From NCBI RefSeq assembly GCF_003626635.1, contig NZ_RAZT01000002.1, positions 310,001-374,000 of the forward strand: 64,000 nt of DNA, written 5' to 3'. Both the position numbers and the translations under genes were made by a program. Under the pieces are notes generated by a model. That model worked only from the letters and a program-made list of their open reading frames with translations. It made no database searches and had not been told where the DNA came from. How positions within the stretch are numbered: position 1 is the stretch's first letter; each line of letters starts with the position of its first letter. The stretch is from Micromonospora musae. Its GTDB lineage: Bacteria; Actinomycetota; Actinomycetes; Mycobacteriales; Micromonosporaceae. Shown here in pieces: positions 5,629 to 54,884 of the stretch.

Positions 5629-7257
5629 GTGGTCGTGGCGCAACCTGTGCAGCAGCACCGCCGGCGGCGGCGTCGGCGGCTCGACCGCCCGGCGCTGGTC
5701 GCGCTGCTGCTCGGGCTCGCCGGGTTCGGCTATCGGCTGGTCCTGACGCTGTTCACGGTGCCGGTGTCGAACAGCGACGAGGCCACCTTCGGCCTGGCCG
5801 CCCTGCACATCGCGCAGGGGCGGGAGCATCCGGTCTTCCTCTACGGCCAGCGCTACATGGGGATGCTCGAGTCGTACCTGGCCGCGCCGCTGATCGCGCT
5901 CTCCGGACCGAACTGGCCGGTGCTGCGGGTGCCGATGCTCGTCCTCTACGCGGTCTTCCTCTACCTGATCCACCGCCTGATGCGCCGGATCTGCTCGCCC
6001 TGGTTCGCCACGTTCGTGATCGGCCTGCTCGCGCTCGGCCCGGAGCGGGTCGTCCGGGACCAGTTGACGGTGGTCGGCGGCCGGCCCGAGGCGAAGGCGG
6101 CGGTGCTGCTGATGCTGCTGATCGCGGTGGGGTTGGCCGGCGGCACGATCCGACGCCGCCGGCCGGCCGTCGGGCTCTTCGGGCTCCTTGCCGGCCTGGC
6201 CCTCTGGTCCGACTGGCTGATCGTTCCGTACCTGGCGGTGGTCGGGCTGCTGCTGGTCTACGCGGTACGCCGGGACCTTCTCGGTTGGGCCGGGGCGCTG
6301 CTGGTGGTCGGCTTCGTGGTCGGCGTCGCCCCGATGATCTGGGACAACGCCGTCGCGCCACCCGGCCAGGACTCGCTGTCGGTGTTCCGGGAGATCAGCA
6401 CCAAGGAGGGTCCGTCGCCGCCGTGGTCGCAGCGCCTGGAGGGCGGTCTGCTGGAGGGGGTGCCGCTGGCCAGCGGGCTCTGCCCGATCGGCGGCTGCGC
6501 CCCGTCGCAGCAGTGGTTCGGGGCGATCTACCCGCTGCTGCTGGTCGGCTCGGCGGCGTTCGCGCTGATCGCGTACCGACGCACCGCCGGTGCGCCGCTC
6601 GCGGCTCGGATCCGGTGGGTCACGCACCTCGCGCTGGTCGCGGGCGCGGTGCTCACCCTGCTGGCGTACGTGCGCAGCCCGCTCTCCGCCACCGACCCGC
6701 TGGGCTACGCCCGGTACCTGTCGGTGCTCCAGCTCTCCCTGCCGGCGGTGCTCTGGCCGCTCTGGCTGGCGGCGGAGGCCTGCTGGCGGGGCACGGTGGG
6801 CGCGCTCGGCCGGTTGACCGGGGCGGTCACGACCGGGGTGCTGGCCGGGCTGGCGGCGGCCGGCCTGGTGGTCACGGTGCTTTTCGCCGCGACCGGTCTG
6901 GCGGCGTCCCGCGACGAGGAGCGGCAGGCCCGCGAGCTCGCCGCCACCCTGCGCGCCGACGGTCCCCGCGAGGTGTACGCCGGCTACTGGGTCTGCAACC
7001 GGCTGGTCTTCAACACCGACGAAGAGGTGATCTGCGGGGTGCTCGACGACAACCTGATGCCCGGGCAGAACCGGTACCTGCCGTACTGGCGGCAGCTGGG
7101 TCGGGCCGAGCGGCCGGGCTACGTGGTGGAGGCCGGTTCGGCGGCGGACCGGCACCTGCGGGGGCTGCTCGGCGACCGGGTCGAGACGACCCCGGTACGC
7201 GACGTCGGCCGCTACCGCGTCTACCACCCGGAGACCCCGCTGCGGCCCTGGCGGTAG
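5629..7257 (+). CDS. GT-C type membrane glycosyltransferase-like protein
   Basis: Polytopic membrane protein of 542 residues. The first luminal loop carries NSDEATFGLAALH near residue 44, an acidic DE pair of the kind that acts in GT-C enzymes of the ArnT/PMT type, and a QRYMGMLESYLAAPL stretch typical of the family. It is followed by about ten hydrophobic segments and a C-terminal soluble part. Such enzymes move a sugar from a polyprenyl phosphate donor to a protein or lipid outside the membrane. Acceptor unknown. Start GTG 5629; a GTG two codons later is equally possible. It is followed after 10 bp by yaaA. Confidence 0.65.
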   Translation: MVVAQPVQQHRRRRRRRLDRPALVALLLGLAGFGYRLVLTLFTVPVSNSDEATFGLAALHIAQGREHPVFLYGQRYMGMLESYLAAPLIALSGPNWPVLRVPMLVLYAVFLYLIHRLMRRICSPWFATFVIGLLALGPERVVRDQLTVVGGRPEAKAAVLLMLLIAVGLAGGTIRRRRPAVGLFGLLAGLALWSDWLIVPYLAVVGLLLVYAVRRDLLGWAGALLVVGFVVGVAPMIWDNAVAPPGQDSLSVFREISTKEGPSPPWSQRLEGGLLEGVPLASGLCPIGGCAPSQQWFGAIYPLLLVGSAAFALIAYRRTAGAPLAARIRWVTHLALVAGAVLTLLAYVRSPLSATDPLGYARYLSVLQLSLPAVLWPLWLAAEACWRGTVGALGRLTGAVTTGVLAGLAAAGLVVTVLFAATGLAASRDEERQARELAATLRADGPREVYAGYWVCNRLVFNTDEEVICGVLDDNLMPGQNRYLPYWRQLGRAERPGYVVEAGSAADRHLRGLLGDRVETTPVRDVGRYRVYHPETPLRPWR

Positions 7258-20165: not shown

Positions 20166-21131
20166 TCAGGCGCCGGTGTCGTCGAAGAGCCGGCCGACCA
20201 CCCGGTGCGCCGGCAGGATCCGCTGCCGCTCGACGTCGGCGTCGGCGGTGCCGGCGACGATGTCGAGGAAGTGGTCCAGCTGGGCGGCGAGCGGCTCCCG
20301 GTTCGTGAGCAGCTCCGGCACCTCGATGATGCTCTGCTGGCGGTAGCCGCGGCCGTCCGGTGTGGCGGCGTCCAGCGAGACGTGCCGGTAGATGGTGACG
20401 TCCTTGCGGATCAGGTCGGCCTCGATCAATCGGTCGACCTCGCTGATGACCAACGTCCGGACCTTGCGCTGTCCGATCCGGCTCGCGGAGACGTTCGCCA
20501 TGGCGCCGGAACCGAAGCTCAGCAGGGTCTCGGCCAAGTCCTCGGCCTCAGCCAGCGAGTCCGGGTGGAAGTGGCCGAGCGTTCCCCGGACCAACGTGGG
20601 CTCCTCGCCGCCGAAGGCCTGGATGGCCAGGTCGACGTCGTGGATGAGCAGGTCCCAGGCGACGCCGGTGCGGATCCGCGGCGCGTACGGCGAGTGCCGG
20701 GTCGCGCTCAGGTGGACCGGACGGTCGACCAGGGCCAGTGCCGTCTGCACGGCGGGGTTGAAGCGCTCCAGCAGGCCGCAGAGCAGGGGAAGACCGCGCT
20801 TCTCGGCGGTCGCGACGATCTCCTCGGTCTCGGCGAGGCTGCCGCAGACCGGCTTCTCGATCAGCAACGGCTTGTCGGCGGCGAGCACCTGGTGGGCGAG
20901 GTCGTGGTGAAACTCGGTGGGGGCCGCGATCACGACCGCGTCGACGTCGGAGAGATCGTCGGCGTCCGGCGCCCAGCCGGCGCCGTACTGCTCGGCGACC
21001 TGCTGACCGACCGAGGGCCGGGGTTCGATCACGCGGACCAGCTCGGCCCGCTCCGACTGCGCGACCACGCGGGCGTGCAGGGACCCCATCACCCCGGTAC
21101 CGACCAGGGCGACACGCAGCTTGCCGCTCAC
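20166..21131 (-). CDS. Gfo/Idh/MocA oxidoreductase, WlbA/GnnA-like
   Basis: 321 residues. Rossmann motif VALVGTGVMGSLHARV at residue 7, the EKPVCGSLAETEE lysine motif (catalytic Lys of EKP) near residue 95, and HDVDLAIQAFGG near 165 as in the C-terminal catalytic domain. Enzymes of this group oxidise C3 of UDP-GlcNAc or UDP-GlcNAcA so that the partner aminotransferase can install an amine. The GTG start overlaps the stop of the upstream aminotransferase by 4 bp, so the two are translationally coupled. Confidence 0.82.
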   Translation of the reverse strand: MSGKLRVALVGTGVMGSLHARVVAQSERAELVRVIEPRPSVGQQVAEQYGAGWAPDADDLSDVDAVVIAAPTEFHHDLAHQVLAADKPLLIEKPVCGSLAETEEIVATAEKRGLPLLCGLLERFNPAVQTALALVDRPVHLSATRHSPYAPRIRTGVAWDLLIHDVDLAIQAFGGEEPTLVRGTLGHFHPDSLAEAEDLAETLLSFGSGAMANVSASRIGQRKVRTLVISEVDRLIEADLIRKDVTIYRHVSLDAATPDGRGYRQQSIIEVPELLTNREPLAAQLDHFLDIVAGTADADVERQRILPAHRVVGRLFDDTGA

Positions 21132-22228
21132 GCGCCCACCGCCGTCCGGACGGCCTCGACGACCTGGTCGACCTCACCGTCGGTCAGGTGGTGGTGCACC
21201 GGCAGGGAGACGCACTGCCGGACGACGCGCTCGGTCACCGGGGCCGGGTCGGCGATGACGCGGGGGTGGTCGCGGTAGCAGTCGTAGTCGTAGACCGTCT
21301 TCGGGTAGTAGGTGCCACAGCCGACACCCTGCTCGGTCAGCCGGGCGATCACCTCGTCCCGGCTGACCGGGGCCTCGTCGGTGATCAGCACGGTGTACTG
21401 GTGCCAGACGTGCGACCGGCCGGGCAGCTCGGTCGGCAGGCGCAGCCCGGGGACGTCGGCCAGGCCGGCGGAGAGCCGGGCGGCGTTGTCCTTGCGGCGC
21501 TTGACGCTGTCGCCGTACGTGGCGATCTGCGGGATACCGAGCGCGGCCTGCAGGTCGGTGAGGCGGTAGTTGTGGCCGGCCACCTCGTACTGGTAGCGCT
21601 GGCGCATGCCCTGGTTGCGCAGCACCCGCAGCCGGTCGGCGAGCGCCTCGTCGTTCGTCGTGATCATGCCGCCCTCACCGGTGGTGAGGTTCTTCGTCGC
21701 GTAGAGCGAGAAGGTGCCGAGCCCGAAGCTGCCCGCACCACGTCCGGAGATCGTCGCGCCCAGCGACTGGGCGGTGTCCTCGACCAGGCCCAGGCCGTGC
21801 CGCTCGGCGAGCGGGGCGATCGCGTCCATGTCGGCGGGCTGCCCGTAGAGGTGGACCGGCATGAGGACCTTGGTACGCGGGCCGATCGCAGCGGCGAGCG
21901 CCTCCGGGTCGACGCAGAAGTCGTCCTCGCGGATGTCGGCGAAGCGTGCGGTGGCACCGGCTTCCAGGATGGCGTTGAGCGTGGCGACGAAGGTGAAGGG
22001 GCTGGTCACGACCTCGTCGCCGGGCTGGAGGTCGAGCACCTCCAGCGCCGCGACCAACGCGGTGGTGCCGTTGTTGACCGCCACCGCGTGCTCTACCCCG
22101 ACCACGTCGGCGAACTCGCTCTCCAGTCGAGCCACCATCGGCCCCTGAGCGATTCTGCCTGATCGGATCACTTCGACCGCCAGCTGTTCAGCCGCCTCGT
22201 CCAGCTTGACGACGGAAATGGGGATCAC
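21128..22228 (-). CDS. DegT/DnrJ/EryC1 sugar aminotransferase, WlbC/GnnB-like
   Basis: 366 residues, PLP enzyme of the sugar aminotransferase class. Visible signatures: VNNGTTALVAALEVLDLQPGDEV at residue 55, VEDTAQSLGA with the PLP-binding Asp, and FSLYATKNLTTGEGGM with the Schiff-base Lys near residue 183. It ends with a HHHLTDGEVDQVVEA pattern. Expected to transaminate the 3-keto sugar made by the coupled oxidoreductase, giving a 3-amino sugar that the acetyltransferase at 15351 can acetylate. GTG start with GAGGAG upstream; first gene of a two-gene operon. Confidence 0.88.
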   Translation of the reverse strand: MIPISVVKLDEAAEQLAVEVIRSGRIAQGPMVARLESEFADVVGVEHAVAVNNGTTALVAALEVLDLQPGDEVVTSPFTFVATLNAILEAGATARFADIREDDFCVDPEALAAAIGPRTKVLMPVHLYGQPADMDAIAPLAERHGLGLVEDTAQSLGATISGRGAGSFGLGTFSLYATKNLTTGEGGMITTNDEALADRLRVLRNQGMRQRYQYEVAGHNYRLTDLQAALGIPQIATYGDSVKRRKDNAARLSAGLADVPGLRLPTELPGRSHVWHQYTVLITDEAPVSRDEVIARLTEQGVGCGTYYPKTVYDYDCYRDHPRVIADPAPVTERVVRQCVSLPVHHHLTDGEVDQVVEAVRTAVGA

Positions 22229-23542: not shown

Positions 23543-24778
23543 TCAGCGGGCGATGATGCTGGTGATGCGGGTGAACTCCCGCATCAGGTCGTATCCGTCC
23601 CAGGTGGCGGCGAAGCTGAGCGCATCACCGATCGGGACGATCCGGTCCACACCGCGACCGGCCACAGTCCGGGCGAAATCGACTAGTTCTTCGGCCTTGA
23701 ACCCGAAGTGGGTGACGGTCTGGTCGCGGCGAACCACGAGCGGGGCGAGCTCGGCCAGCGTGTCGACCCGCGCCTGCGGGAAGGTGCCGACGCCGAGCCA
23801 GCGTCGCGGGATGTCCGCCGGATCGGCGAGCTCCACCGTCGCCAACTCGTTGCCGTCGAAGCGGATGGCAGTCGCGGTGCCGTCGACGGCCAGTCCGTAC
23901 GTGGCGACCCGCTTCTCCACCGCCATCGCCGCGTCGACCTCCGGCCGCTTGCCGTCCAGCACCGCGCGCAAGCGGGCCAACAGGTCGGTCCGGGCCGCCT
24001 CGGTGTCCGCCGCGTCGCCGACCCAGTACAGGGTGCGCGGTGAGGAGCACGCCGCCTGGTCGAACCAGTACGAGTCGTTGTAGAGCCCGAGAGCCGCCGC
24101 GTCCCGCTCCCGCTCGTCGGCGCCCAACCAACCGGCGCTGCTGAGAACGGTGAACGACGAACGGTCCGGGAAGGTCACGTCGCGGGCGTGCGGAGCGAGC
24201 GGGTGCCGTCGGATCTCGTTCACCGAGCGGTCCCCGCCCCAGATGACCCGGAGGTCGGCCGCGGCGGAGAGCGCTCCTGTGACGACGTCGTCACGCCCGT
24301 ACGTCACCATCCGCTGAGTCTGCCGAACCGCTTCGTCCGCCTCGGCCAGGGTGTCGTTCAGGGCGTCGAGAACGGCGTCCGCCGCACCTGCCGAGCGGGA
24401 CGAGATTCGAACCACGTTGGCGTTGCCGGCCAGAGCGGAGAGCGCCCACGAGTAGACGAAGATGGTGTCCACGTTCGCGGGCGGCACGTGGAAGACCGTG
24501 CCTCGGGGAAAGCGCAGCTGTCCCGGCTCGTCGGCCACTCGGGCCAACAGCTTGTTGATCTCCGCGCGACGCAGGAAGAAGCCGAGTGAGCCCAGTTCGG
24601 GGTAGCGCCGGGCGACGGCCGGACGGAGCAGCCGCCGCGCGAACGCGACGAGGAACTCCACCACCCGATCGTCACCGACGGTGAGCGGCCCGCCCGCCGG
24701 GGTGTTCCGCAGAGCCGCCAGCAGGTCGTCGACGTCGATCGCACCGCCGGCGGGGAACCTCTCGATGACCTTGCTCAT
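23543..24778 (-). CDS. LuxC-family acyl-CoA/acyl-protein reductase
   Basis: 411 residues. The aldehyde-dehydrogenase-like fold of LuxC is seen in PRGTVFHVPPANVDTIFVYS near residue 92, VVRISSRSAGAADAVLDAL (nucleotide-binding region), VIWGGDRSVNEIR, and the active-site Cys in FDQAACSSPRTLYWVG near residue 245. LuxC reduces a fatty acyl thioester, handed over by LuxE, to an aldehyde with NADPH. No luxAB genes lie nearby, so the aldehyde is not for bioluminescence. Last gene of the operon; its ATG overlaps the LuxE-like stop as ATGA. Confidence 0.88.
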   Translation of the reverse strand: MSKVIERFPAGGAIDVDDLLAALRNTPAGGPLTVGDDRVVEFLVAFARRLLRPAVARRYPELGSLGFFLRRAEINKLLARVADEPGQLRFPRGTVFHVPPANVDTIFVYSWALSALAGNANVVRISSRSAGAADAVLDALNDTLAEADEAVRQTQRMVTYGRDDVVTGALSAAADLRVIWGGDRSVNEIRRHPLAPHARDVTFPDRSSFTVLSSAGWLGADERERDAAALGLYNDSYWFDQAACSSPRTLYWVGDAADTEAARTDLLARLRAVLDGKRPEVDAAMAVEKRVATYGLAVDGTATAIRFDGNELATVELADPADIPRRWLGVGTFPQARVDTLAELAPLVVRRDQTVTHFGFKAEELVDFARTVAGRGVDRIVPIGDALSFAATWDGYDLMREFTRITSIIAR

Positions 24779-25821
24779 GCCGCCTCCGCAAAGGTGTCGC
24801 TGCAGCCACGGGCCTCCGCCCGCGGCAGGCGTCCCAGGATCGAGAAGCGCTTACCCGGCCAGACGCCGTCGTCGACGCCGTGCACCACGCCCTGGTCCTC
24901 GGTGAGCAGCAGGTGCCCGGGGTACGACCGCGGCAGGGTGCTGACCACCTGGACGACGCCCGGCGTGCCGACCGGCACCTCCTCCCAGGTGCGGGGGTCG
25001 CGGATGATGATGTCGGAGAAGTCCGGGCAGTACAGCCCTCCGCCGTCCGTCCCCTCCAGGAACGTCAGTCCGATCTGCTCGACCATGCCGTAGAAATTGT
25101 GGATCCGCCGCAGCCCGGTCTCCTCGGCAAAACGGCGCCGGAACTCGTCGTTGTCGACAGCCCGGTCCGTCAGCTTCTTCCACCCACCACTGTGGATCAG
25201 AATGCCGTTGCTCAGGTCGAGCTTGTTCTCCCGTGCCAGCTCGTAGAGGTAGAGCCAGGTCATGAAGGTGAAGCCGAAGATGAGGAACGGCTGGTCACCG
25301 TGCTTGTCGAGGAAGGCGCGCACCGCCTCCAGGTCGGGCCGGTCGTTCTCGTCGAGCACGAACGTGTGATCGCGGCCGAAGTTCATCAGGCCGAGCACTC
25401 CGGCGCCGCGGGCCGAGAACGACCGACGGTCCTTGAACAGTGCCCGGGTGTCAACCAGCAGCATCGGCAGCCGGCGCGGCCCGATCACCGGGCTGAGCGT
25501 CGCGGACAGCATCTTCTGCTGCAGCCCGGCCGCCTCCTTGTCGAGGTAGATGCGGCTCACGTCGCCGGTCGTACCGGACGAGGTGAGCACCTTGAACACC
25601 TCGTCGTCGGTGATGCTCTTGAGCACGTGGTGCTTGAACAGCCGTACCGGCAGCCAGGGCAGATCCGCGATCCGCTCGTAACGCCGTCCGGGATGATGGC
25701 CGAGCGAGGCGAGCAGCCGCGCGTACTCCGGACTGTTGGCCCGGTGATGCTCGGTGAGCTCGACCAGCTCCGGCAGCAGCCGCGCTTCACGAGTGGCCTG
25801 GTCGAGGGTGAACAGGGTCAT
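24775..25821 (-). CDS. LuxE-family acyl-protein synthetase
   Basis: 348 residues of the LuxE/adenylate-forming fold: LTSSGTTGDVSRIYLD near residue 90 is the phosphate-binding loop, followed by FLIFGFTFMTWLY and HSGGWKK and NFYGMVEQIGL (the adenylation-core YGxxE-like motif). The extreme C-terminus is RGCSDTFAEAA, with Cys340, matching the flexible C-terminal Cys of LuxE that carries the acyl group to LuxC. The acyl donor could be acyl-AMP or acyl-ACP. Coupled by ATGA overlaps with both neighbours, so LuxE and LuxC are probably made in equal amounts. Confidence 0.88.
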   Translation of the reverse strand: MTLFTLDQATREARLLPELVELTEHHRANSPEYARLLASLGHHPGRRYERIADLPWLPVRLFKHHVLKSITDDEVFKVLTSSGTTGDVSRIYLDKEAAGLQQKMLSATLSPVIGPRRLPMLLVDTRALFKDRRSFSARGAGVLGLMNFGRDHTFVLDENDRPDLEAVRAFLDKHGDQPFLIFGFTFMTWLYLYELARENKLDLSNGILIHSGGWKKLTDRAVDNDEFRRRFAEETGLRRIHNFYGMVEQIGLTFLEGTDGGGLYCPDFSDIIIRDPRTWEEVPVGTPGVVQVVSTLPRSYPGHLLLTEDQGVVHGVDDGVWPGKRFSILGRLPRAEARGCSDTFAEAA

Positions 25822-27239
25822 ACCTGCGCCTCCAGGGAGCGGTAATCAATCTTGCCGTTGGGCAGTTGCGGCAACCGCTCGATGGTCCGGACGTCGAATC
25901 CGGACCGGTGCAGCTTGAGCCGCTCGGCGAGCCGTCCGGCGAGGTCGCGGGCGGCATTTTCGTCGATGCCCTCGACGAAGACGACGACCTTGTCCGGACC
26001 GGACACCGCGACCACCGGCCCCTGGTCACGCAGCATCTCCTCGATGTCGTGCAGGTTGACCCGGATACCGAAGATCTTGCCGAACCGCTTGATCCGACCA
26101 CGCAGCCAGACGAACCCGTCCTCGTCGAGGTGGCCGAGGTCACCGGTGCGCAGCACCCCGCCCTGGTCGTCACCCCGAGTCAGGTCGGCGGAGTTCTCGG
26201 CGTACCCCATCATCACGTTCGGACCGCGGTACACCAGCTCCCCGATCACGCCCGGGGCTGCCGTCTCGGCGCCCTCGGCGTTCACCACGCTGAAGGACCC
26301 ACCGGCCAGCGCGGGCCCGACCGAGCCCACCCGGGCCGGCAGCGCGTCCGCGGGCAGCGTGCTCATTCGCGGGCCGGCCTCCGTGCAGCCCCACATGACG
26401 TGGAACCGGCCACCGGCCGCACTGATCTTCTCGTGGAAGGCGAGGATCATCTCGTCGCGCAGCTTGCCGCCGGCCTGCGTGAGGGTACGGATCGACGGAT
26501 ACTTCGCGGGTGACCAGCGGATGCGGTGCAGCATCTCGTAGTTGTAGGGGACGCCGGCCAGCGACGTCGCGCCGTACGTCTGCACCGCCTGCCAGAACTC
26601 CCGGGCCAGCACACCGCCGTCGACCACCAGCACGGTGGCGCCGGCCGCGAGATGGCTGTTGAGCACGGACATGCCGAAGCTGTAATACAGCGGCAGGCTG
26701 GTCGGCGCGATCTCGTCCGGGCCGATCGCCAACGCCTCGGCGATGGCCGCGGCGTTCGACGACACCGCGGAGCTGGAGAGCCGGACGAACTTCGGATCAC
26801 CGGTCGAACCTGAGGTCGCCAGCAGCACGGCCAGCTCCGGGTGCGGCTCGTCGGCCGGCGGGACCTCCCGGCGCCACACCGGCCCGAGGACTTCGTCGTC
26901 CACCTGCTGGTAGGACTTCGGTCGCTCGCCCGAGTCCGCGCCCGCGCCGCCTTCTGCCAGGCCGACGACCACCGCCGGTTCGAACCGACCGATGAAATCG
27001 GCGAGCACGGCGGGGTCGAGCGCCGGGTCCAGCAGGGCGACCGCCCGTCCAGCGCGCAGCGCACCGGCGTACCGCAGCACAGTCGGCACCGACGTGCCGG
27101 CGCGGGCGAAGACGACGCCCGGCGGCAGGGCCGCGTACGCCTCGGCCGTGCGGTCGACCGCGGCGCTGAGCTCCGCTCCGGCGAGGATCTCACCGGTGGC
27201 GGCGTCGATGAGCCGCGCCGATGGTGCGATGAGATTCAT
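25818..27239 (-). CDS. AMP-dependent acyl-ACP/acyl-CoA ligase
   Basis: 473 residues, the short form of the ANL superfamily. P-loop LLATSGSTGDPKFVRLSSS near residue 140, A5-type MWGCTEAGPRMS near 285, A7 YRGPNVMMGYAENSADL, LRTGDLGHLDEDGFVWLRGRIKRFGKIFG near 390 (A8 hinge), and the A10 Lys in LPNGKIDYRSL at the C-terminus. It would adenylate a carboxylic acid and load it on a thiol, most likely the acyl carrier protein encoded two genes upstream. Both ends overlap neighbours by ATGA. Acid specificity cannot be read from sequence. Confidence 0.88.
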   Translation of the reverse strand: MNLIAPSARLIDAATGEILAGAELSAAVDRTAEAYAALPPGVVFARAGTSVPTVLRYAGALRAGRAVALLDPALDPAVLADFIGRFEPAVVVGLAEGGAGADSGERPKSYQQVDDEVLGPVWRREVPPADEPHPELAVLLATSGSTGDPKFVRLSSSAVSSNAAAIAEALAIGPDEIAPTSLPLYYSFGMSVLNSHLAAGATVLVVDGGVLAREFWQAVQTYGATSLAGVPYNYEMLHRIRWSPAKYPSIRTLTQAGGKLRDEMILAFHEKISAAGGRFHVMWGCTEAGPRMSTLPADALPARVGSVGPALAGGSFSVVNAEGAETAAPGVIGELVYRGPNVMMGYAENSADLTRGDDQGGVLRTGDLGHLDEDGFVWLRGRIKRFGKIFGIRVNLHDIEEMLRDQGPVVAVSGPDKVVVFVEGIDENAARDLAGRLAERLKLHRSGFDVRTIERLPQLPNGKIDYRSLEAQV

Positions 27240-27991
27240 GCGACAAGTCCCCCGTCGACGCCGAGCACCTGCCCGGTGACGTACCGTGCGCCATCCCCGG
27301 CGAGGAACCGGATCACGTCGGCGACCTCGTCGGCGTCACCGAGGCGGCCGAGCGCGGCGGCGCCCGCCTGGTTGTCGAGCACCTCCGCCGGGAGGCCGGC
27401 GGTGAGGTCGGTACGGATGACCCCGGGGGCCACCGCGTTCACCCGGACACCCCGACCGCCCAGTTCCCGCGCTGCGGAGCGGGCCAGCGCCGCGACCGCC
27501 GCCTTCGAGGCCGCGTACACGGACTGGCCGGCCGCGCCGTAGATGCCGACGACCGACGCCAGCAGCACGATCGAGCCGCCCCGACGCTCGCTGCCGTCGG
27601 ACGCCTTCCGGCGACGCGCCATCGCCCGACCGGCCGCCTGCACCGCGGCGACGGCACCCGAGACGTTGACGTCCAGGGTGCGGCGAACGTCCTCGCCGCG
27701 CAGCATGCCGAGCAGGCCGTTCTCCATGATCCCGGCGTTGGCGACCAGAATGTCGAGCCCACCGTGCTCGGTGGTGACCCGCTTGACCGCCGCGCCGACC
27801 GCGTCGAAGTCCGCGACGTCGAGACCCAGGCCGTACCCGCCGAACTCCTTGGCCACGGTCGCGGCATTGGCCGCGTCCCGACCGGTGATGACCACGGTCG
27901 CGCCGGCGTCGGTGAGTGCCCGGGCGGTCGCCAGACCGATGCCCCGGGTCCCGCCCGTGACCAGCGCGACGCGGCCGGTCAGCTCACTCAT
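27236..27991 (-). CDS. FabG-like short-chain dehydrogenase
   Basis: 251 residues from ATG 27991. NADP-binding TGGTRGIGLATA near residue 12, NAG motif LVANAGIMENG, catalytic Ser in VLLASVVGIYGAAGQ and YAASK (Tyr and Lys), ending VTGQVLGVDGGLV as in 3-oxoacyl-ACP reductases. In this context it probably reduces a beta-keto acyl-ACP or forms a hydroxyacyl group for transfer to the sugar. It overlaps the acyl carrier protein gene by 8 bp (ATGAGTGA) and the ligase gene by 4 bp. Confidence 0.88.
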   Translation of the reverse strand: MSELTGRVALVTGGTRGIGLATARALTDAGATVVITGRDAANAATVAKEFGGYGLGLDVADFDAVGAAVKRVTTEHGGLDILVANAGIMENGLLGMLRGEDVRRTLDVNVSGAVAAVQAAGRAMARRRKASDGSERRGGSIVLLASVVGIYGAAGQSVYAASKAAVAALARSAARELGGRGVRVNAVAPGVIRTDLTAGLPAEVLDNQAGAAALGRLGDADEVADVIRFLAGDGARYVTGQVLGVDGGLVA

Positions 27992-28223
27992 CGACGGAGA
28001 GGCCCCGAAGCATGTCGAGCGCAACCTTGAAGCTGCTCATGTCGATGACCTGGTCGGTCTCCAGCTGGACGTCGAACTCGTCCTCGATCGCGGCGACCAG
28101 GGTCATGTGTCCCAGGGAGTCCCACTGCTCGATCCCGCGGTAGTTGAGGTTCTCCACATCCGTGCCCTCGGGCAGCTCCAGCGCGTCCACGAAGACGGCA
28201 CGCAGGCGGTCGTTCAGGGTCAT
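27984..28223 (-). CDS. Acyl carrier protein (first copy)
   Basis: 79 residues. The phosphopantetheine site is QWDSLGHMTLV, with Ser38 in the DSL motif. The four-helix ACP pattern is clear (IEQWDSLGHM, IEDEFDVQLETDQVIDM). ATG 28223 is preceded by GGAGAT. It is strongly similar to the second ACP at 49581-49823: both share YRGIEQWDSL and LVAAIEDEFDV. An ACP in the middle of a ligase-reductase operon argues that the acyl group is processed while tethered. Confidence 0.92.
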   Translation of the reverse strand: MTLNDRLRAVFVDALELPEGTDVENLNYRGIEQWDSLGHMTLVAAIEDEFDVQLETDQVIDMSSFKVALDMLRGLSVDE

Positions 28224-28267
28224 GGTCGAGTATCTCCGTCGTTCTCGGTGGCTCGTGGTGACGGGCG

Positions 28268-28894
28268 TCACTGATCGTCGCGGCTGGCGGCGGGTGCGCC
28301 CCACACCTGAGTCTCTCCCCGCGCCTCAGCGCGGGCTCTGCGGGCTGCGTTCTCGGCTCGTACCCGGTCCGCTTCGCCGCGGAGGTATTCCTGGTCGTAG
28401 CGCTGGAAGACGCGGGCCGGATTGCCCGAGACCAAACTGTAGGCGGGAACGTCCTTGGTCACCACCGACAGGGGGCTGATCGTGGCGCAGTCACCGATCG
28501 TGACTCCCATCATGATCACGCTGTTGCCACCGATGAAGCAACCCTTGCCGATCTTGACCGGCTTGCGCTCGATCAGATCGCTGCCCGAATGGTTCTCCAG
28601 CATCATGTTCGCCAGCCAGCTGGAGTGGGTGAAGACCAGGCAGTTCAACCCGATGCTGGTGTGGTCACCGATCTCCAGCCCACCGCTGGCGTCCAGAACC
28701 GTGTTCTCACCGACCCAGCAGTGCTCGCCCATGACGAGGTTCTCCGGGCTGACGATCTTCGTACGTTCACGGATCCGAGTGGTCTCCGGAAGACCCAGGT
28801 AGCGCGCCCGCTCGACGTCGTTGAGCAGGTTACCGACGAGATCGTTCAGGATGGCGGGGCGCAGCCGGTTGCTGCGCTCGTCGTCGAGGAACAT
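28268..28894 (-). CDS. Hexapeptide-repeat acyltransferase
   Basis: 208 residues. Left-handed beta-helix hexads run from about residue 50 (GEHCWVGENTVLDASGG, IGDHTSIGLN) to 160 (IGGNSVIMMGVTIGDCATISPLSVVTKDV), ending SGNPARVFQRYDQEYL, the CysE/LacA/WbbJ type. Such enzymes acylate sugar hydroxyls or amines. Here it lies directly before the ACP gene (44-bp gap), so it may use an acyl-ACP donor rather than acetyl-CoA. Its DNA is clearly lower in GC than the window average (about 60% over sampled lines), a sign of separate ancestry. Confidence 0.85.
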   Translation of the reverse strand: MFLDDERSNRLRPAILNDLVGNLLNDVERARYLGLPETTRIRERTKIVSPENLVMGEHCWVGENTVLDASGGLEIGDHTSIGLNCLVFTHSSWLANMMLENHSGSDLIERKPVKIGKGCFIGGNSVIMMGVTIGDCATISPLSVVTKDVPAYSLVSGNPARVFQRYDQEYLRGEADRVRAENAARRARAEARGETQVWGAPAASRDDQ

Positions 28895-28896
28895 GT

Positions 28897-30084
28897 TCAG
28901 ACTCGCCCCGTCATGCGCTCGAAGGCGTCCAGGTGCTGGCGGGTCACCACGTCGAGGGTGAAGTGGCCGTAGACCAGGTCCCGCTGCCGCTTGGCGATGA
29001 TTTCCCGCTCCTCTGGATCGTCCAGCAGCCGGATCACCGCGTCAGCGAGCCCGCTCGGATCGTTCGGCGGAACCAGCACGAAGTTCTCCCAGTTGCGGAG
29101 CTGGACCGCAGGGAAATTGGTCTCGGTGACCGTGCCGATGGTCGCCCGGCCGGACGCCATCGCCTCCAGGCTCGCCGTGCCGAATCCACCGCCCTGCAGA
29201 TCGTGCGCGACGACGTCGGCCGCGGCGAAGTACGCGGGCACCTCGGTCGAGGGGACGACGCCCGTGGTGATGATGGCCTCGCTGACGCCGAGTTCGGCAG
29301 CCCGCTTGGCGAAGGCGTCGTAGTAGACCCGGCCGATGACCATCACCTTGGTCTCGGGGTGCTTGCCGAGGATCGTCGGCAGCGCCTCGACCAGGGCGAG
29401 GCGGTCCCGCAACGGGATCACGTGGCCGAGGGACACGATCAGAGGAGCGTCGCCGACACCGTGTCGCGAGCGGATGTCGAGTGTCGACTCGACGGCGAAT
29501 CGTGACGGTTCGACCGCGACTGGGATGTACTCGTAATCCACCGTGGTCGCACCGTAACGCTGCGCACAGTAGCTGGCGGCCAGCTCATCCATGATCACGT
29601 ATCGCGGGTGGAACCGCGTGATGATCGGCTTGACCAGGCACCGGTCCAGCACCTTGAAGAGCGCGGCGTACTTCGGATCGGGGCTCTCCAGCCGGGTGTG
29701 GATGGAGAGCAGCACGGGCAGCTTGCGTCGGCGCGCGTACCAGCCGGAGATCCAGCTCAGATCGAAGAACTGACCGTGCTGGTGGATGACGTCGGGCCCA
29801 AACTCGTCCAACAGCCGCCGGACCCGGCGCATGTTGCCCGGCCGGGCCAGGGCGAACGCCATGTCGAAGTCGATGGAGAGGCCGAGCTTCGGCATCGGCA
29901 TCGCCGGCAGCCGCACGACCTTGTAGCCGTGACGCTCCTCCTCGGCGGGAGCACCGGGATACGCCGCGGTTAGCACCAACACCTCGTGGCCTGCGGCGAC
30001 ATAACGCTCCGCCAACGCAGCTGCCAGGTGCGAACTCCCGCCGGGACGGGGCGGAAAGAAGTTGTTGACGACCGCGATCCGCAC
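28897..30084 (-). CDS. Family 4 glycosyltransferase
   Basis: 395 residues, GT-B fold. The N-terminus MRIAVVNNFFPPRPGGSSHLAAAL has the acceptor-side Gly-rich loop of GT4. The C-terminal donor domain shows PLIVSLGHVIPLRDRLALVEALP, ADVVAHDLQGGGFGTASLEAMASGRATIG (the E-x7-E motif region) and LADAVIRLLDD. Cytosolic retaining transferase that uses a nucleotide sugar. First gene of the seven-gene acyl-processing operon, two bases upstream of the hexapeptide acyltransferase. GTG start at 30084. Confidence 0.9.
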   Translation of the reverse strand: MRIAVVNNFFPPRPGGSSHLAAALAERYVAAGHEVLVLTAAYPGAPAEEERHGYKVVRLPAMPMPKLGLSIDFDMAFALARPGNMRRVRRLLDEFGPDVIHQHGQFFDLSWISGWYARRRKLPVLLSIHTRLESPDPKYAALFKVLDRCLVKPIITRFHPRYVIMDELAASYCAQRYGATTVDYEYIPVAVEPSRFAVESTLDIRSRHGVGDAPLIVSLGHVIPLRDRLALVEALPTILGKHPETKVMVIGRVYYDAFAKRAAELGVSEAIITTGVVPSTEVPAYFAAADVVAHDLQGGGFGTASLEAMASGRATIGTVTETNFPAVQLRNWENFVLVPPNDPSGLADAVIRLLDDPEEREIIAKRQRDLVYGHFTLDVVTRQHLDAFERMTGRV

Positions 30085-36599: not shown

Positions 36600-38114
36600 A
36601 TGACGCAGGACCACACCACTGGCCCGGACGCCGCCCCGGAGAATCCGGCACCCTGGCGCCCCTCGCGGACAGTGGCTGTGATCCTCGCCGGTGGGACAGG
36701 TACCCGCCTCGGGCTCGGCATCCCCAAGCAGCTGCTGAAGATCGCCGGCAAGCCGATCATCGAGCACACCCTGGCCGTCTTCGAGTCCGCGCCGGAGATC
36801 GACGAGATCATCGTGCTGATGGCCAGCGGCCACGTCGGCGAGGCGCAGGAGATCGTCGACAAGGCCGGCTTCCGCAAGGTCGGCAAGGTGATCGAGGGTG
36901 GCGAGAGCCGCAACGAGACCACCCGCATCGCGCTCGACGCGGTCGGCGAGGGGGACTGCAACATCCTCTTCCACGACGCGGTACGGCCCCTGGTCAGCCA
37001 CCGGATCGTCCGCGAGTGCGTGAACGCCCTCTGGACCTACTCGGCGGTCGACGTGGCCATCCCGTCGGCCGACACGATCATCCAGGTGGACGAGGAAGAG
37101 TGCATCACCGACATCCCGGTGCGCTCCTCCCTGCGCCGCGGCCAGACCCCGCAGGCGTTCCGCTCCGGCACCATCCGGGAGGCGTACCGGCTGGCCGAGG
37201 GCGACCCGCACTTCGCCGCCACCGACGACTGCGGCGTGGTGCTGCACTACCTGCCCGGCACGCCGATCAAGGTGATCGACGGCTCGGACGAGAACATCAA
37301 GGTCACCCACCCGGTCGACGTCCACCTCGCGGACAAGCTCTTCCAGCTCGCCGCCGCGCGGGTGCCCCGGCTCGCCGACCACCGCAGCTACCGCGAGGAG
37401 CTGACCGGGCGGACCGTGGTCGTCTTCGGCGGCAGCTACGGCATCGGCCACGACCTGGCCGAGCTGGCCCGCCGGCACGGCGCCCAGGTCTTCGCGTTCA
37501 GCCGGAGCAGCACGGAGACCCACGTCGAGCGGCCGGAGGACGTCGAGGCGGCGCTGAAGACGGCGTTCGAGGCGACCGGGCGGATCGACCACGTGGTGGT
37601 CACCGCGGGTGTCCTGGAGAAGGGCAACCTCGCCGAGATGGACGAGGAGACCATGGACCGGGTCCTCCAGGTCAACTTCGTCGGGCCGGTCACCGTCGCC
37701 CGCCTGGCCCTGCCCTACCTCCAGCAGACCAAGGGGCAGCTGCTGCTCTACACCTCCAGCTCGTACACCCGGGGTCGGGCGCGCTACGCGCTCTACTCGG
37801 CCACCAAGGCCGCACTGGTCAACCTCACCCAGGCGCTGGCCGACGAGTGGGCGGACGTCGGTGTCCGGGTCAACTGCGTCAACCCGGAGCGGACGGCCAC
37901 CCCGATGCGTACCCGGGCCTTCGGCGAGGAGCCGGAGCACACCCTGCTCTCGGCCGAGGCGGTGGCCCAGGCCTCGCTGGACGTGCTGATCTCGGAACTC
38001 ACCGGGCAGGTCATCGACGTACGCCGGCCGCAGGGCGAGGCGCCGCAGACGGTCCCGGCCCAGGCGGCGCCCTCCGACGGTGGCACGACCGCCACCCCGG
38101 CGACCGCCGGCTGA
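36600..38114 (+). CDS. Fused cytidylyltransferase/SDR (TarI-TarJ-like)
   Basis: 504 residues. Residues 20-255 are an IspD/TarI cytidylyltransferase: VAVILAGGTGTRLGLGIPKQLL, then HDAVRPLVS and RRGQTPQAFR. Residues 265-480 are an SDR: VVVFGGSYGIGHDLAELARR, with catalytic YSATK near 400. This matches bacterial fusions like Haemophilus Bcs1, which make CDP-ribitol from ribulose 5-phosphate and CTP. Here the reductase is an SDR rather than the zinc alcohol dehydrogenase TarJ, as in Bcs1. It should supply CDP-ribitol (or a similar CDP-polyol) for the TagF-like enzyme 45 bp downstream. Confidence 0.9.
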   Translation: MTQDHTTGPDAAPENPAPWRPSRTVAVILAGGTGTRLGLGIPKQLLKIAGKPIIEHTLAVFESAPEIDEIIVLMASGHVGEAQEIVDKAGFRKVGKVIEGGESRNETTRIALDAVGEGDCNILFHDAVRPLVSHRIVRECVNALWTYSAVDVAIPSADTIIQVDEEECITDIPVRSSLRRGQTPQAFRSGTIREAYRLAEGDPHFAATDDCGVVLHYLPGTPIKVIDGSDENIKVTHPVDVHLADKLFQLAAARVPRLADHRSYREELTGRTVVVFGGSYGIGHDLAELARRHGAQVFAFSRSSTETHVERPEDVEAALKTAFEATGRIDHVVVTAGVLEKGNLAEMDEETMDRVLQVNFVGPVTVARLALPYLQQTKGQLLLYTSSSYTRGRARYALYSATKAALVNLTQALADEWADVGVRVNCVNPERTATPMRTRAFGEEPEHTLLSAEAVAQASLDVLISELTGQVIDVRRPQGEAPQTVPAQAAPSDGGTTATPATAG

Positions 38115-46794: not shown

Positions 46795-47931
46795 GTGGTC
46801 AATGAGCCGACGCATGCCCCGCTGCTGAGTCTCGTCGTGCCCGTCCACGGCGTCGAGGCCTACCTGTACCAGTGCCTGGAGTCGATTCGGGCCGACATCC
46901 CGGCCGCCGAGGCGCACCAGGTCGAGCTGGTCGCGGTCGACGACGCCTCGCCGGACCGCTGCGGTGAGATGCTGCGCTCGTACGCGGCCGACCGGTCCGG
47001 CATCCGGCTCGTGCACCTGACGCAGAACGTGGGCCTGGGGCTGGCCCGCAACGCGGGGCTCGACGTGGCGACCGGCCGGTACGTCTGGTTCGTCGACAGC
47101 GACGACTGGCTGCCGCCGGGCACCATCCCCGCGGTGCTGGACCGGCTGCGCCAGCACGAACCGGACGTACTGCTGCTCGATCACCTCCGGGTGCACGAGG
47201 ACGGCCGGCGGGAGGTCGACGCCAGCAGCCACCTGCTGCGTGACGTGCCGGGTGTGGTTCGGCTGGCCGACCGCCCGCAGCTGCTGCGGGTGCAGCACAC
47301 CGCCTGGAACAAGGTGGTCCGCCGCGGCTTCCTGGACGAGCTGGGGCTGCGGTTCCACGCGGGCTGGTACGAGGACATCCCGTTCAGCCACCCGCTGCTG
47401 ATCGGCGCCGAGAAGATCTCGGTGCTGGACCGGGTCTGCTACCTGTACCGCCGGGGCCGGCAGGGGGCCATCACCTCGACCCGCAGCGGCCGGCACTTCG
47501 ACGCCTTCGACCAGTACGAGCGGCTGATGGACTGGGTGCGCCGGCGCCACCCCGACGAGCAGCTGCAGGCCGACCTCTTCGGGTTGATGGTGAACCACTA
47601 CCTCGTGGTGGCGGGCAACGACGACCGGCTCCACCCCCACCTGCGCCGGGCCTTCTTCCGGCGGGTGACCGAGCACTACCGCCGCTACCTGCCGACCCGC
47701 GGCTACACGCTGCCCGGCGGTGTTCCGGGGCTGAAGCACCGGCTGGTCGGGCGGGGCGACTACCTGGCGTACGCGGCCCTGCGGCAGGCGCACCGGGTGA
47801 CCGGCCGGCTGCGCGCCACCCGCGACGGCGGTCCGGGTGAGGACGCCGACACCGACCCGGAGACCGTGGGCGCGTCGATCGGGCAGCCGCTCCCCGCCGA
47901 GCAGGCCGGTGTGCTGACGGTGCGGGCATGA
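46795..47931 (+). CDS. Family 2 glycosyltransferase
   Basis: 378 residues, GT-A fold. LLSLVVPVHGVEAYLYQCLESI at residue 10, VELVAVDDASPDRCGE near 43, NVGLGLARNAGLDVATGRYVWFVDSDDWL near 80 with the DxD-type motif in VDSDDW. The C-terminal 150 residues resemble TagF/WcaA-like GT2 extensions. Cytosolic inverting transferase that likely builds the linkage or side chain. GTG start; its TGA overlaps the ATG of pseH. Confidence 0.88.
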   Translation: MVNEPTHAPLLSLVVPVHGVEAYLYQCLESIRADIPAAEAHQVELVAVDDASPDRCGEMLRSYAADRSGIRLVHLTQNVGLGLARNAGLDVATGRYVWFVDSDDWLPPGTIPAVLDRLRQHEPDVLLLDHLRVHEDGRREVDASSHLLRDVPGVVRLADRPQLLRVQHTAWNKVVRRGFLDELGLRFHAGWYEDIPFSHPLLIGAEKISVLDRVCYLYRRGRQGAITSTRSGRHFDAFDQYERLMDWVRRRHPDEQLQADLFGLMVNHYLVVAGNDDRLHPHLRRAFFRRVTEHYRRYLPTRGYTLPGGVPGLKHRLVGRGDYLAYAALRQAHRVTGRLRATRDGGPGEDADTDPETVGASIGQPLPAEQAGVLTVRA

Positions 47932-48470
47932 GCGAGCACCGCGAGCGGGTCGAGGAGGAGAGTGCGGCCGGTGCGGGGTTTCGCCCCGCCGACGACGGCG
48001 ACGTGCGGCGGATGCTGCAGTGGCGTAACCACCCGCAGGTTCGAGGGGTGAGCCTGACCAGCCACGAGATCGGCTTGGACGAGCACACCGCCTGGTGGAC
48101 GCGGGCCCGGGTCGACCCGGACCGTCGGGTGCTGATGCACCTGCACCGGGGCGTCCCGTCGGGGGTCGTCACCTTCGCCGGCCTCACCTCCCCGGAGCGG
48201 GCCCTCACCTGGGGTTTCTATCTCGACGTCGCCGGGCTGGACGCGCGGGGCGAGCTGCTGCCGGCATGGCTCTCCCTGGAGCGGGCGGCGATCGCGTACG
48301 CGTTCGAGACGCTCGGCGCGCACACGCTCGGCGGCGAGACGTTGACCAGTAACCAGCCGGTGCTCGCCCTGCACCGGCGGTTCGGCTTCCGCGTCGTGCG
48401 GCAGTACGAGCGGGAGATCGAGGGCAGGCCGCATCAGGTGGTCTGGACGGAGATGAGCAGAGGAAAATGA
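47928..48470 (+). CDS. pseH: PseH-like GNAT N-acetyltransferase
   Basis: 180 residues, GNAT fold. FRPADDGDVRRMLQWRNHPQVR at residue 15 and HTAWWTRA near 45 are typical of PseH. ERAAIAYAFETLGAHTLGGETLTSNQPVLALHRRFGF closes with the acetyl-CoA-binding and C-terminal pattern. It should acetylate the 4-amino group of UDP-4-amino-4,6-dideoxy-N-acetyl-altrosamine in pseudaminic acid biosynthesis. ATGA overlaps both with the glycosyltransferase before and pseI after, so all three are coupled. Confidence 0.85.
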   Translation: MSEHRERVEEESAAGAGFRPADDGDVRRMLQWRNHPQVRGVSLTSHEIGLDEHTAWWTRARVDPDRRVLMHLHRGVPSGVVTFAGLTSPERALTWGFYLDVAGLDARGELLPAWLSLERAAIAYAFETLGAHTLGGETLTSNQPVLALHRRFGFRVVRQYEREIEGRPHQVVWTEMSRGK

Positions 48471-49513
48471 CAGTCAGCATCGGGCCGCACCGGGTCGGCC
48501 CTGGAGAGCGTCCCCTCGTGGTCGCCGAGATGTCCGGTAACCACAACGGCAGCCTCGATCGGGCTCTGGAGATCGTGGACGCGGTGGCGGCGAGCGGAGC
48601 GCACGCGCTCAAGCTCCAGACGTACCGTCCGGACACCATCACCATCGACGTGGACGCGGAGGCGTTCCGGATCTCCGACGAGCACGGCCTCTGGGGCGGT
48701 GAGAACCTCTACCGGCTCTTCGAGCGGGCGCACACCCCGTACGAGTGGCACGAGCCGATCTTCGAGCGGGCCCGCCGGCACGGGCTGACGGTCTTCTCCT
48801 CCCCGTTCGACCACACGGCCGTGGAGCTGCTGGAGAAGCTGGACGTACCGGCGTACAAGATCGCCTCGTCGGAGCTGGTGGACCTGCCGCTGATCCGCCT
48901 CGTGGCGAGCACCGGCAAGCCGATGGTGATCTCCACGGGGATGGCCACCGTCGGTGAGATCGACGCCGCCGTGCGGACCGCCCGCGAGGGTGGCGCCGGG
49001 GGCATCGTGCTGCTCGCCTGCACCGCCTCCTACCCGGCGCCGCCGCAGGACAGCAACCTTCGCCGGATCCCGGTGCTGGCCGACACGTTCGGCGTGCCCG
49101 TGGGACTCTCCGACCACACGCCCGGCATCGGCGTGCCGGTCGCCTCGGTGGCGCTCGGCGCCTGCCTGATCGAGAAGCACGTGACGCTGCGCCGGACCGA
49201 CGGCGGCGTCGACTCGGACTTCTCGCTGGAGCCGGCCGAGTTGGCCGCGCTCACCGTCGAGTCGGAGCGGGCCTGGGCCGCGCTCGGCACCACCCACATC
49301 GGCCCCACCCCGACCGAGCGCGAGGGGTTGCGGTTCCGCCGCTCCCTCTTCGTCGTCGCCGACGTACGGGCCGGTGACCCGGTGACCGCGGCGAACGTCC
49401 GCTCGATCCGGCCCGCCGGCGGGCTGCCCCCGGCCGATCTGGACAAGGTGCTCGGGCGGACCTTCGCCAGTGACGTCTCGCGCGGGACGCCGCTCTCCTG
49501 GGATCTGATCTGA
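48467..49513 (+). CDS. pseI: Pseudaminic acid synthase
   Basis: 348 residues, NeuB-superfamily. LVVAEMSGNHNGSLDRALEIVDA near residue 15 and ALKLQTYRPDTITID mark the PseI subgroup; VFSSPFDHTAVELLEKLDVPAYKIASSEL follows. The C-terminal SAF-type domain begins after residue 280 (FRRSLFVVADVRAGDPV). It condenses phosphoenolpyruvate with 2,4-diacetamido-2,4,6-trideoxy-L-altrose to give pseudaminic acid. Last gene of this sub-operon, closed by a terminator. Confidence 0.92.
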   Translation: MTVSIGPHRVGPGERPLVVAEMSGNHNGSLDRALEIVDAVAASGAHALKLQTYRPDTITIDVDAEAFRISDEHGLWGGENLYRLFERAHTPYEWHEPIFERARRHGLTVFSSPFDHTAVELLEKLDVPAYKIASSELVDLPLIRLVASTGKPMVISTGMATVGEIDAAVRTAREGGAGGIVLLACTASYPAPPQDSNLRRIPVLADTFGVPVGLSDHTPGIGVPVASVALGACLIEKHVTLRRTDGGVDSDFSLEPAELAALTVESERAWAALGTTHIGPTPTEREGLRFRRSLFVVADVRAGDPVTAANVRSIRPAGGLPPADLDKVLGRTFASDVSRGTPLSWDLI

Positions 49514-49519
49514 CACGTG

Positions 49520-49553
49520 CGACGGGCCTGGTCCGTGCGGACCAGGCCCGTCG
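49520..49553. terminator. Hairpin between pseI and the second ACP gene
   Basis: Perfect palindrome 49520-49553 with arms CGACGGGCCTGGTCCG and a two-base centre; convergent genes on both sides. Confidence 0.75.
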
Positions 49554-49580
49554 TCGACTCTCCGGGAGCCGGCCGCGGGA

Positions 49581-49823
49581 TCAATCGGTGAGAACGGTCC
49601 CGTGCTTTTCCAAAATCTGCCGGGCGCGGTCGAAGGAACTGAGATCGATAACCTCGTCGGTCTCCAACATCACGTCGAACTCGTCCTCGATCGCGGCGAC
49701 GAGCGACATGTGCGCGAGCGAGTCCCACTGCTCGATCCCGCGATATTCCAGACTCTCCACCTCAGCGTCCTCGGGCAGTTCCAGGGCGGTTCGGAAGACG
49801 GTCCTCAGTCGCTGCAGTTCCAC
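49581..49823 (-). CDS. Acyl carrier protein (second copy)
   Basis: 80 residues. Phosphopantetheine Ser in QWDSLAHMSLV near residue 36; the body is strongly similar to the ACP at 27984 (YRGIEQWDSL, AAIEDEFDVMLETDEVIDLSSF). It is a lone gene, inserted on the minus strand between pseI and pseB and sharing the 244-bp divergent spacer with pseB. The duplication implies that an acyl group carried by ACP is also needed by the Pse half of the locus, perhaps as N-acyl donor. Confidence 0.92.
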   Translation of the reverse strand: MELQRLRTVFRTALELPEDAEVESLEYRGIEQWDSLAHMSLVAAIEDEFDVMLETDEVIDLSSFDRARQILEKHGTVLTD

Positions 49824-49963
49824 TGTTTTCCTCCGTGACAGGCACGCACGACCACGCGTGCCGGCCGAGTGTAGCCGAGGTCCGGGACCTCACCACCTGC
49901 GCTGGAATACACAGGAGATGTTCGCCTGGACGGCATTCCGCATTCACCTTGCCCGCGACGGCA

Positions 49964-50007
49964 GTTAACGGGAGTGCGTTGGCGTGTTAACCCACCGGGT
50001 CTACCGT
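49964..50007 (+). promoter_or_regulatory. Candidate promoter/operator of pseB
   Basis: Two GTTAAC hexamers (49964-49969 and 49986-49991) lie two helical turns apart. TTGGCG (49979-49984) and TACCGT (50002-50007) are spaced by 17 bp and could be -35 and -10 elements. Similar GTTAAC motifs precede the genes at 22228 and 36600. Confidence 0.3.
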
Positions 50008-50067
50008 CACGATCCGTTCCGTCAGCCGGGCGCCGACCGTAAGCCACCACGACCGCGGGAGAAGCAA

Positions 50068-52205: not shown

Positions 52206-52215
52206 TGGGACGCTG

Positions 52216-54865: not shown

Positions 54866-54884
54866 ACGGGTGGAGGTGCCGCTG

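Follow-up and report, generated by a model that had tools for sequence, protein, structure and literature searches.

Known LuxE/LuxC gene sets and the Micromonospora locus

Genes for an acyl carrier protein (ACP), a short-chain dehydrogenase/reductase (SDR), an AMP-dependent ligase and homologs of LuxE and LuxC have been described together in several flagellar loci. In the group II polar flagella glycosylation island of Aeromonas, the five genes stand in this order beside pseH within a pseudaminic acid (Pse) locus, and fatty acid synthesis or a liposugar was proposed as their purpose (PMC7874193). Enterobacterial flagellin glycosylation islands hold Acp, FabG, CaiC, LuxE, and LuxC (PMC4875605), and a variant in Dickeya zeae has a VioA aminotransferase and a hexapeptide acyltransferase (PMC7575072). 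Here, we analyze the five-gene cassette in a 64,000-nucleotide stretch of the Micromonospora musae genome (contig NZ_RAZT01000002.1, positions 310,001 to 374,000; hereafter the window). Its gene content and genomic company suggest, with a probability that we put at roughly 0.7, that the five genes build a small hydroxyacyl group on an ACP, and that a sugar N-acyltransferase would pass this group on to a nucleotide-activated amino sugar, at its amino group.

The gammaproteobacterial loci (Aeromonas, enterobacteria) were compared by published description. Gene families, gene order, and amino-sugar setting agree between the window cassette and the acp-fabG-ligase-luxE-luxC set of the flagellar islands, the Aeromonas side being taken from its description (PMC7874193). 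However, the Aeromonas island serves a Gram-negative flagellin glycan, whereas the window probably represents an actinomycete wall glycopolymer locus, in which there are two ACPs and a further sugar partner. The enterobacterial (PMC4875605) and Dickeya zeae (PMC7575072) islands likewise have the gene families of the window cassette, although the latter differs by an extra transketolase pair and a second FabG. The bioluminescence LuxC-LuxE(-LuxD) system shares the LuxE and LuxC families and both catalytic cysteines, and presumably the same acyl transfer and reduction. In contrast to it, the window cassette has low identity, lacks luxD and luxAB, and includes an ACP, an SDR, a ligase, and sugar genes. 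No luxA or luxB-like gene was found among the annotated neighbors in the window, in line with the first-pass annotation, and no luxD either, and the cassette proteins score far below the cut-offs of the bioluminescence equivalogs (45.1 against 750 for LuxC in NF052251; 61.8 against 550 for LuxE in NF052244), placing the cassette outside the lux operons.

The first-pass annotation, made from the window's sequence alone, had listed seven genes on one strand, running from a glycosyltransferase through a hexapeptide acyltransferase to the cassette, with the last five overlapping by 4 or 8 bp. All seven were recovered in that order on the minus strand at 23543-30084, with overlaps of 8 bp between ACP and SDR and of 4 bp each at the SDR/ligase, ligase/LuxE, and LuxE/LuxC joints. 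LuxE belongs to Pfam PF04443 (151.6 bits against a gathering cut-off of 24.9) and LuxC to PF05893 (96.8 bits against 21). The catalytic cysteines that had been pointed out, the C-terminal Cys340 of LuxE within RGCS and Cys244 of LuxC within AACSS, are invariant in the relatives compared (105/105 and 103/103). Cys244 aligns to a cysteine of the solved Photobacterium LuxC (7xc6), and LuxE matches the solved LuxE (7xc6_E) in phmmer at 6.5e-12. The AlphaFold2 model of LuxC (pLDDT 87.6) has LuxC 7xc6 as its best PDB match at a low TM-score of 0.38, and thus confirms the fold family only; the model of LuxE is poor (pLDDT 65.7). The ligase carries the C-terminal Lys463, and its closest solved relatives include a nonribosomal peptide synthetase domain, an oxalate-CoA ligase, and malonyl-CoA synthetases. 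The SDR matches TIGR01830 at 5.8e-64, under the cut-off of that family. The window genome contains a single LuxC match and a single LuxE match.

Cassette conservation and its amino-sugar partners

For comparison, 80 named loci were retrieved with the LuxE protein, along with further ones (loci are given as L numbers below). Of 105 non-redundant loci, 91 have the five genes in the order ACP-SDR-ligase-LuxE-LuxC, so that the grouping is not a chance one. Most incomplete loci run to the end of a contig or stretch, and a few are rearranged or split (e.g., L110, L128, L129, L133, and L168). Beyond the two cysteines, the catalytic residues are also preserved: the ACP serine in 95/95, the ligase lysine in 100/100, and the SDR tyrosine and lysine in 96/97 proteins, with the remaining one not aligned.

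Amino-sugar genes adjoin the cassette almost without exception. We counted neighbors in the 66 named loci that span 19 kb or more, with Pse-type genes scored within about 10 kb, and found amino-sugar genes in 65: Pse-type genes in 58 and a DegT1/Gfo pair in seven. The 58 comprise 49 loci with two or more Pse-type genes and nine with one; L081, L082, and the L019-L026 group enter the count with a single Pse-type gene each. Only L035 has neither by these thresholds. LuxE/LuxC pairs found mostly apart from glycan genes, which the first-pass annotation had named as the observation that would speak against it, are thus not what these full-length loci show. The partner enzymes are sugar N-acyltransferases of the PseH, hexapeptide, and PglD types. 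The common partner is thus amino-sugar N-acylation, with Pse as the commonest acceptor.

Among the genera compared, Actinoplanes has the tightest link between cassette and Pse genes. PseI and LuxE occur together in 49 of 61 Actinoplanes-group genomes, PseI alone in one, and neither in 11. Both genes lie on one contig, 6-28 kb apart, in 48 of the 49 pairs, and none of the 11 PseI-negative genomes has a LuxE of the pse type, two of them carrying a LuxE at 51-52% identity. In Micromonospora, LuxE was found in six of 37 genomes, all of them PseI-positive, and PseI alone in 15.

The cassette is also present on a Deinococcus plasmid, where the LuxC gene overlaps a gene for a PglD-type N-acyltransferase, and rearranged forms occur in Ponticoccus and Rhizobium. 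On two Rhizobium plasmids (L179, 5200-15271; L180, 4363-13300), LuxE and LuxC accompany an ACP, a ligase, an SDR, an acyltransferase, FabZ, and a split transketolase. These Dickeya-like sets may chain-extend the aldehyde. The transketolase pair of the Dickeya and Rhizobium versions would fit an aldehyde intermediate; it is not evidence for the window cassette.

Carrier protein and PseH in the pse locus

A second, separate part of the window (47928-56662), absent from the first-pass annotation, encodes a Pse pathway. PseB and PseI score above their equivalog cut-offs, PseC and PseH fall narrowly under theirs, and PseF and PseG are weaker still (Table 1). Every step of the canonical di-N-acetyl Pse pathway (PseB/C/H/G/I/F) therefore has a homolog here; in contrast to that pathway, the window PseH probably uses hydroxyacyl-ACP rather than acetyl-CoA.

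In related Micromonospora loci (L091-L093, L095, and L131), the cassette occupies precisely the interval from pseI to pseB. At this very site, the window holds a lone ACP gene that the first-pass annotation had not listed. The encoded protein scores slightly below the PP-binding cut-off (20.4 against 20.8 bits), and shares 92-94% identity with its counterparts in intact in-locus cassettes (L091), as against 60-70% with the ACPs of window-type cassettes. Relative to the L091 ACP, its dN/dS of about 0.14 indicates purifying selection. An ACP, likewise under purifying selection, also remains at this site in L193 and L194, the latter additionally retaining a broken SDR fragment, 81-83% identical to in-locus SDRs. 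The orphan ACPs and the SDR fragment are direct evidence that an in-locus cassette was lost and that its carrier protein is the part retained next to PseH and PseI; the window's orphan ACP is its remnant. We also considered gene conversion between the two window ACPs, as three derived residues of the orphan ACP match the cassette ACP, and rejected it, given how short the tract is and that the comparison was made post hoc. A near-perfect inverted repeat resembling a terminator stem (49521-49554) separates the convergent pseI and orphan ACP genes.

Two types of PseH are found in Micromonospora. Type A (68-91% identity to the window PseH) is present in 9/9 cassette-positive genomes and type B (43-52%) in 36/36 readable cassette-negative ones (Fisher 1e-9), a count that is not independent evidence, since the two types represent one split on the PseI tree. 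Cassette-negative genomes have no PseH at the usual place before pseI; their pseI-pseB interval instead comprises a ligase, an SDR, a divergent PseH, and two unknown proteins. This alternative segment (L101, 10985-16481, with equivalents in L096-L108 and L139-L165), whose 194- and 663-aa proteins have no Pfam match, may represent an additional acyl-donor module. Within the type-A clade, the window genome, L094, L138, L153, and L192-L195 have lost the in-locus cassette and carry a window-type one elsewhere. The PseI tree, which has some weak forks, calls for no fewer than four steps between the two arrangements, and one cassette per genome is kept throughout the clade.

Table 1. Cassette, pse locus, and adjoining genes in the window
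Feature	Position	Strand	Match or comment
GT4 glycosyltransferase, 395 aa	28897-30084	−	Pfam Glycos_transf_1 9.6e-23
Hexapeptide acyltransferase, 208 aa	28268-28894	−	Pfam Hexapep 2.9e-10
Cassette ACP, 79 aa, WDSLGH	27984-28223	−	Pfam PP-binding 1.2e-4
SDR, 3-oxoacyl-ACP reductase type, 251 aa	27236-27991	−	Pfam adh_short_C2 1.9e-57
AMP-dependent ligase, 473 aa	25818-27239	−	Pfam PF00501 (AMP-binding) 5e-43
LuxE-like acyl-protein synthetase, 348 aa	24775-25821	−	Pfam PF04443 3.7e-44
LuxC-like acyl reductase, 411 aa	23543-24778	−	Pfam PF05893 1.7e-27
DegT aminotransferase, conserved partner of window-type cassettes	21128-22228	−	Pfam PF01041
Gfo/Idh/MocA dehydrogenase, UDP-GlcNAc 3-dehydrogenase-like	20166-21131	−	Pfam PF01408
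PseH-like GNAT N-acyltransferase, type A	47928-48470	+	TIGR03585 1.3e-24, 87.1 bits against cut-off 93.1
PseI pseudaminic acid synthase	48467-49513	+	TIGR03586 461.8 bits, above cut-off
Orphan ACP, 80 aa, WDSLAH, between pseI and pseB	49581-49823	−	GGAGG ribosome-binding site
PseB UDP-GlcNAc 4,6-dehydratase (inverting)	49984-51048	+	TIGR03589 491.5 bits, above cut-off
PseC aminotransferase	51003-52205	+	TIGR03588 408.6 bits against cut-off 423.5
PseF-like cytidylyltransferase	54828-55613	+	Pfam CTP_transf_3; weak TIGR03584
PseG-like hydrolase	55727-56662	+	TIGR03590 8e-29, below cut-off

Beside the window cassette, the DegT and Gfo/Idh/MocA genes form a candidate pair for making a 3-amino sugar, the dehydrogenase having NF040723 as its top NCBIfam match (1.3e-39, under its cut-off), and the hexapeptide acyltransferase is the candidate N-acyltransferase of window-type cassettes. 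Other genes of the locus encode two TagF-like proteins, an ABC-2 exporter pair, an IspD-SDR fusion, a polysaccharide pyruvyl transferase, and several sugar enzymes. Given the TagF-like proteins, the exporter pair, and the sugar genes, the window is likely a wall glycopolymer locus. The fusion of an IspD-type cytidylyltransferase to an SDR (36600-38114) resembles bifunctional CDP-ribitol synthase and adjoins a TagF-like gene. Two proteins of 280 and 605 aa (52216-53058 and 53048-54865) have no Pfam or NCBIfam match and are kept beside PseC and PseF in pse loci of several families; a further 542-aa protein (5629-7257), with coding-like composition, has no Pfam match.

A proposed hydroxyacyl-ACP donor and competing explanations

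We infer acyl-ACP as the final donor, a role that the comparisons support well, and, with less certainty, the half-reduction of a dicarboxylate and the identity of the acyl group. The carrier protein retained beside PseH suggests such a donor, and the two ATP-dependent carboxylate activations, by LuxE and by the ligase, point to acyl-ACP as well, with the aldehyde as a mere intermediate. The set has two activating enzymes, an acyl reductase, and an SDR; if each is used once, the simplest scheme would be the half-reduction of a dicarboxylate to an omega-hydroxy acid and its loading onto the ACP. LuxE would adenylate a small dicarboxylic acid, malate or succinate, at one of its carboxyls and hand the thioester to LuxC, which would reduce it to the semialdehyde; the SDR would turn this into the alcohol, and the ligase would put the resulting hydroxy acid onto the ACP. 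Malate would lead via 3,4-dihydroxybutyrate to a 3,4-dihydroxybutyryl group, and succinate via 4-hydroxybutyrate to a 4-hydroxybutyryl group. ACP loading may also come first. The amine acylated by PseH later forms N7 of Pse, and in pse loci PseH would transfer the acyl group, which would end at this position. For window-type loci, the likelier acyltransferase is the hexapeptide enzyme encoded next to the ACP; its substrate would be the 3-amino sugar that Gfo and DegT produce. In the window genome, the cassette (23.5-28.2 kb) probably charges the orphan ACP beside pseI and pseH too.

The first-pass annotation had proposed a glycan-modifying cassette working without luxAB, and this part is borne out by the neighbor counts. 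Its suggestion that an aldehyde or a derived alcohol itself decorates the polymer is not favored. A fatty acyl group that is reduced by LuxE and LuxC and then joined to the glycan, yielding a lipid-modified sugar, would be in keeping with the homology to the bioluminescence fatty acid reductase and with the liposugar suggested in the Aeromonas (PMC7874193) and enterobacterial papers; yet we regard it as improbable, because an ACP, which such an end product would not need, is the part kept beside the pse genes, because the partners are N-acyltransferases and aminotransferases, and because of the two carboxylate activations. The sole mass available, 376 Da, also leaves no room for a long chain.

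This mass, 376.14 Da for the Pse derivative of Aeromonas AH-3, comes from an island group with the cassette beside pseH (PMC7874193). It fits Pse with one acetyl swapped for dihydroxybutyryl (calculated 376.148) and not for monohydroxybutyryl (360.153), but O-methylglyceryl fits 376 Da too. The 4-hydroxybutyryl group is known on other amino sugars (PMC9912281, PMC3210612). We tentatively propose, at somewhat less than even odds, that LuxC and LuxE were recruited for the half-reduction of malate, supplying 3,4-dihydroxybutyryl-ACP to PseH as one conserved route to hydroxyacylated Pse in actinomycete wall teichulosonic acids and Gram-negative flagellins alike, with two ACPs served by one enzyme set in the window. 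The wall teichulosonic acid of Actinoplanes utahensis reportedly bears N-(3,4-dihydroxybutanoyl) at C7 of Pse, in work by Streshinskaya and colleagues from 2011. Yersinia ruckeri O1 has a 4-hydroxybutyramido nonulosonic acid, and the cassette would be expected there, although the papers do not list its genes.

The cassette could alternatively serve only the Gfo/DegT 3-amino sugar through the hexapeptide enzyme, with PseH using another donor and the orphan ACP being a slowly decaying relic. Gfo, DegT, and hexapeptide genes do adjoin window-type cassettes in Micromonosporaceae and Pseudonocardiaceae, even without Pse, but a relic sits poorly with an orphan ACP that retains its serine, its ribosome-binding site, and a dN/dS near 0.14, and PseH, where present in these genomes, is always of the cassette-linked type; we consider this explanation unlikely. 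Slightly more doubtful still is an acyl-ACP donor made by other chemistry, in which a preformed hydroxy or keto acid is loaded by the ligase, the 3-hydroxyl comes from the SDR, and LuxE and LuxC remove or edit a carboxyl elsewhere. The SDR is indeed nearest to 3-oxoacyl-ACP reductases, and LuxE-negative Micromonospora have the ligase and SDR segment without LuxE and LuxC; however, such a route leaves no clear step for two enzymes whose catalytic cysteines never vary.

Several observations weigh against a hydroxyacyl-ACP donor for Pse, besides the single split that underlies the PseH types. Many Pseudonocardiaceae lack PseI and yet have a window-type cassette, accompanied by DegT1, Gfo, and a hexapeptide acyltransferase, and one Micromonospora (L014) and Planosporangium (L016) have a window-type cassette and no PseH match. 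Since cassettes without PseH or PseI exist, the acceptor is not always Pse. Five type-A genomes lacking the in-locus cassette kept no orphan ACP. The ambiguous 376 Da mass comes from AH-3, a member of another phylum, and a literature search gave no confirmation of the 3,4-dihydroxybutanoyl group in Actinoplanes.

Many flagellar glycosylation islands are on record with the luxE/luxC five-gene set, whose purpose has only been guessed at. The swaps, losses, and orphan ACP described here suggest a specific role for it, as the source of an acyl donor for amino-sugar N-acylation, especially at N7 of Pse. If true, N-acyl variants of the sialic-like sugars of walls and flagella could be traced to gene content in different phyla, and the LuxC-LuxE reductase would have an unusual role apart from luminescence.

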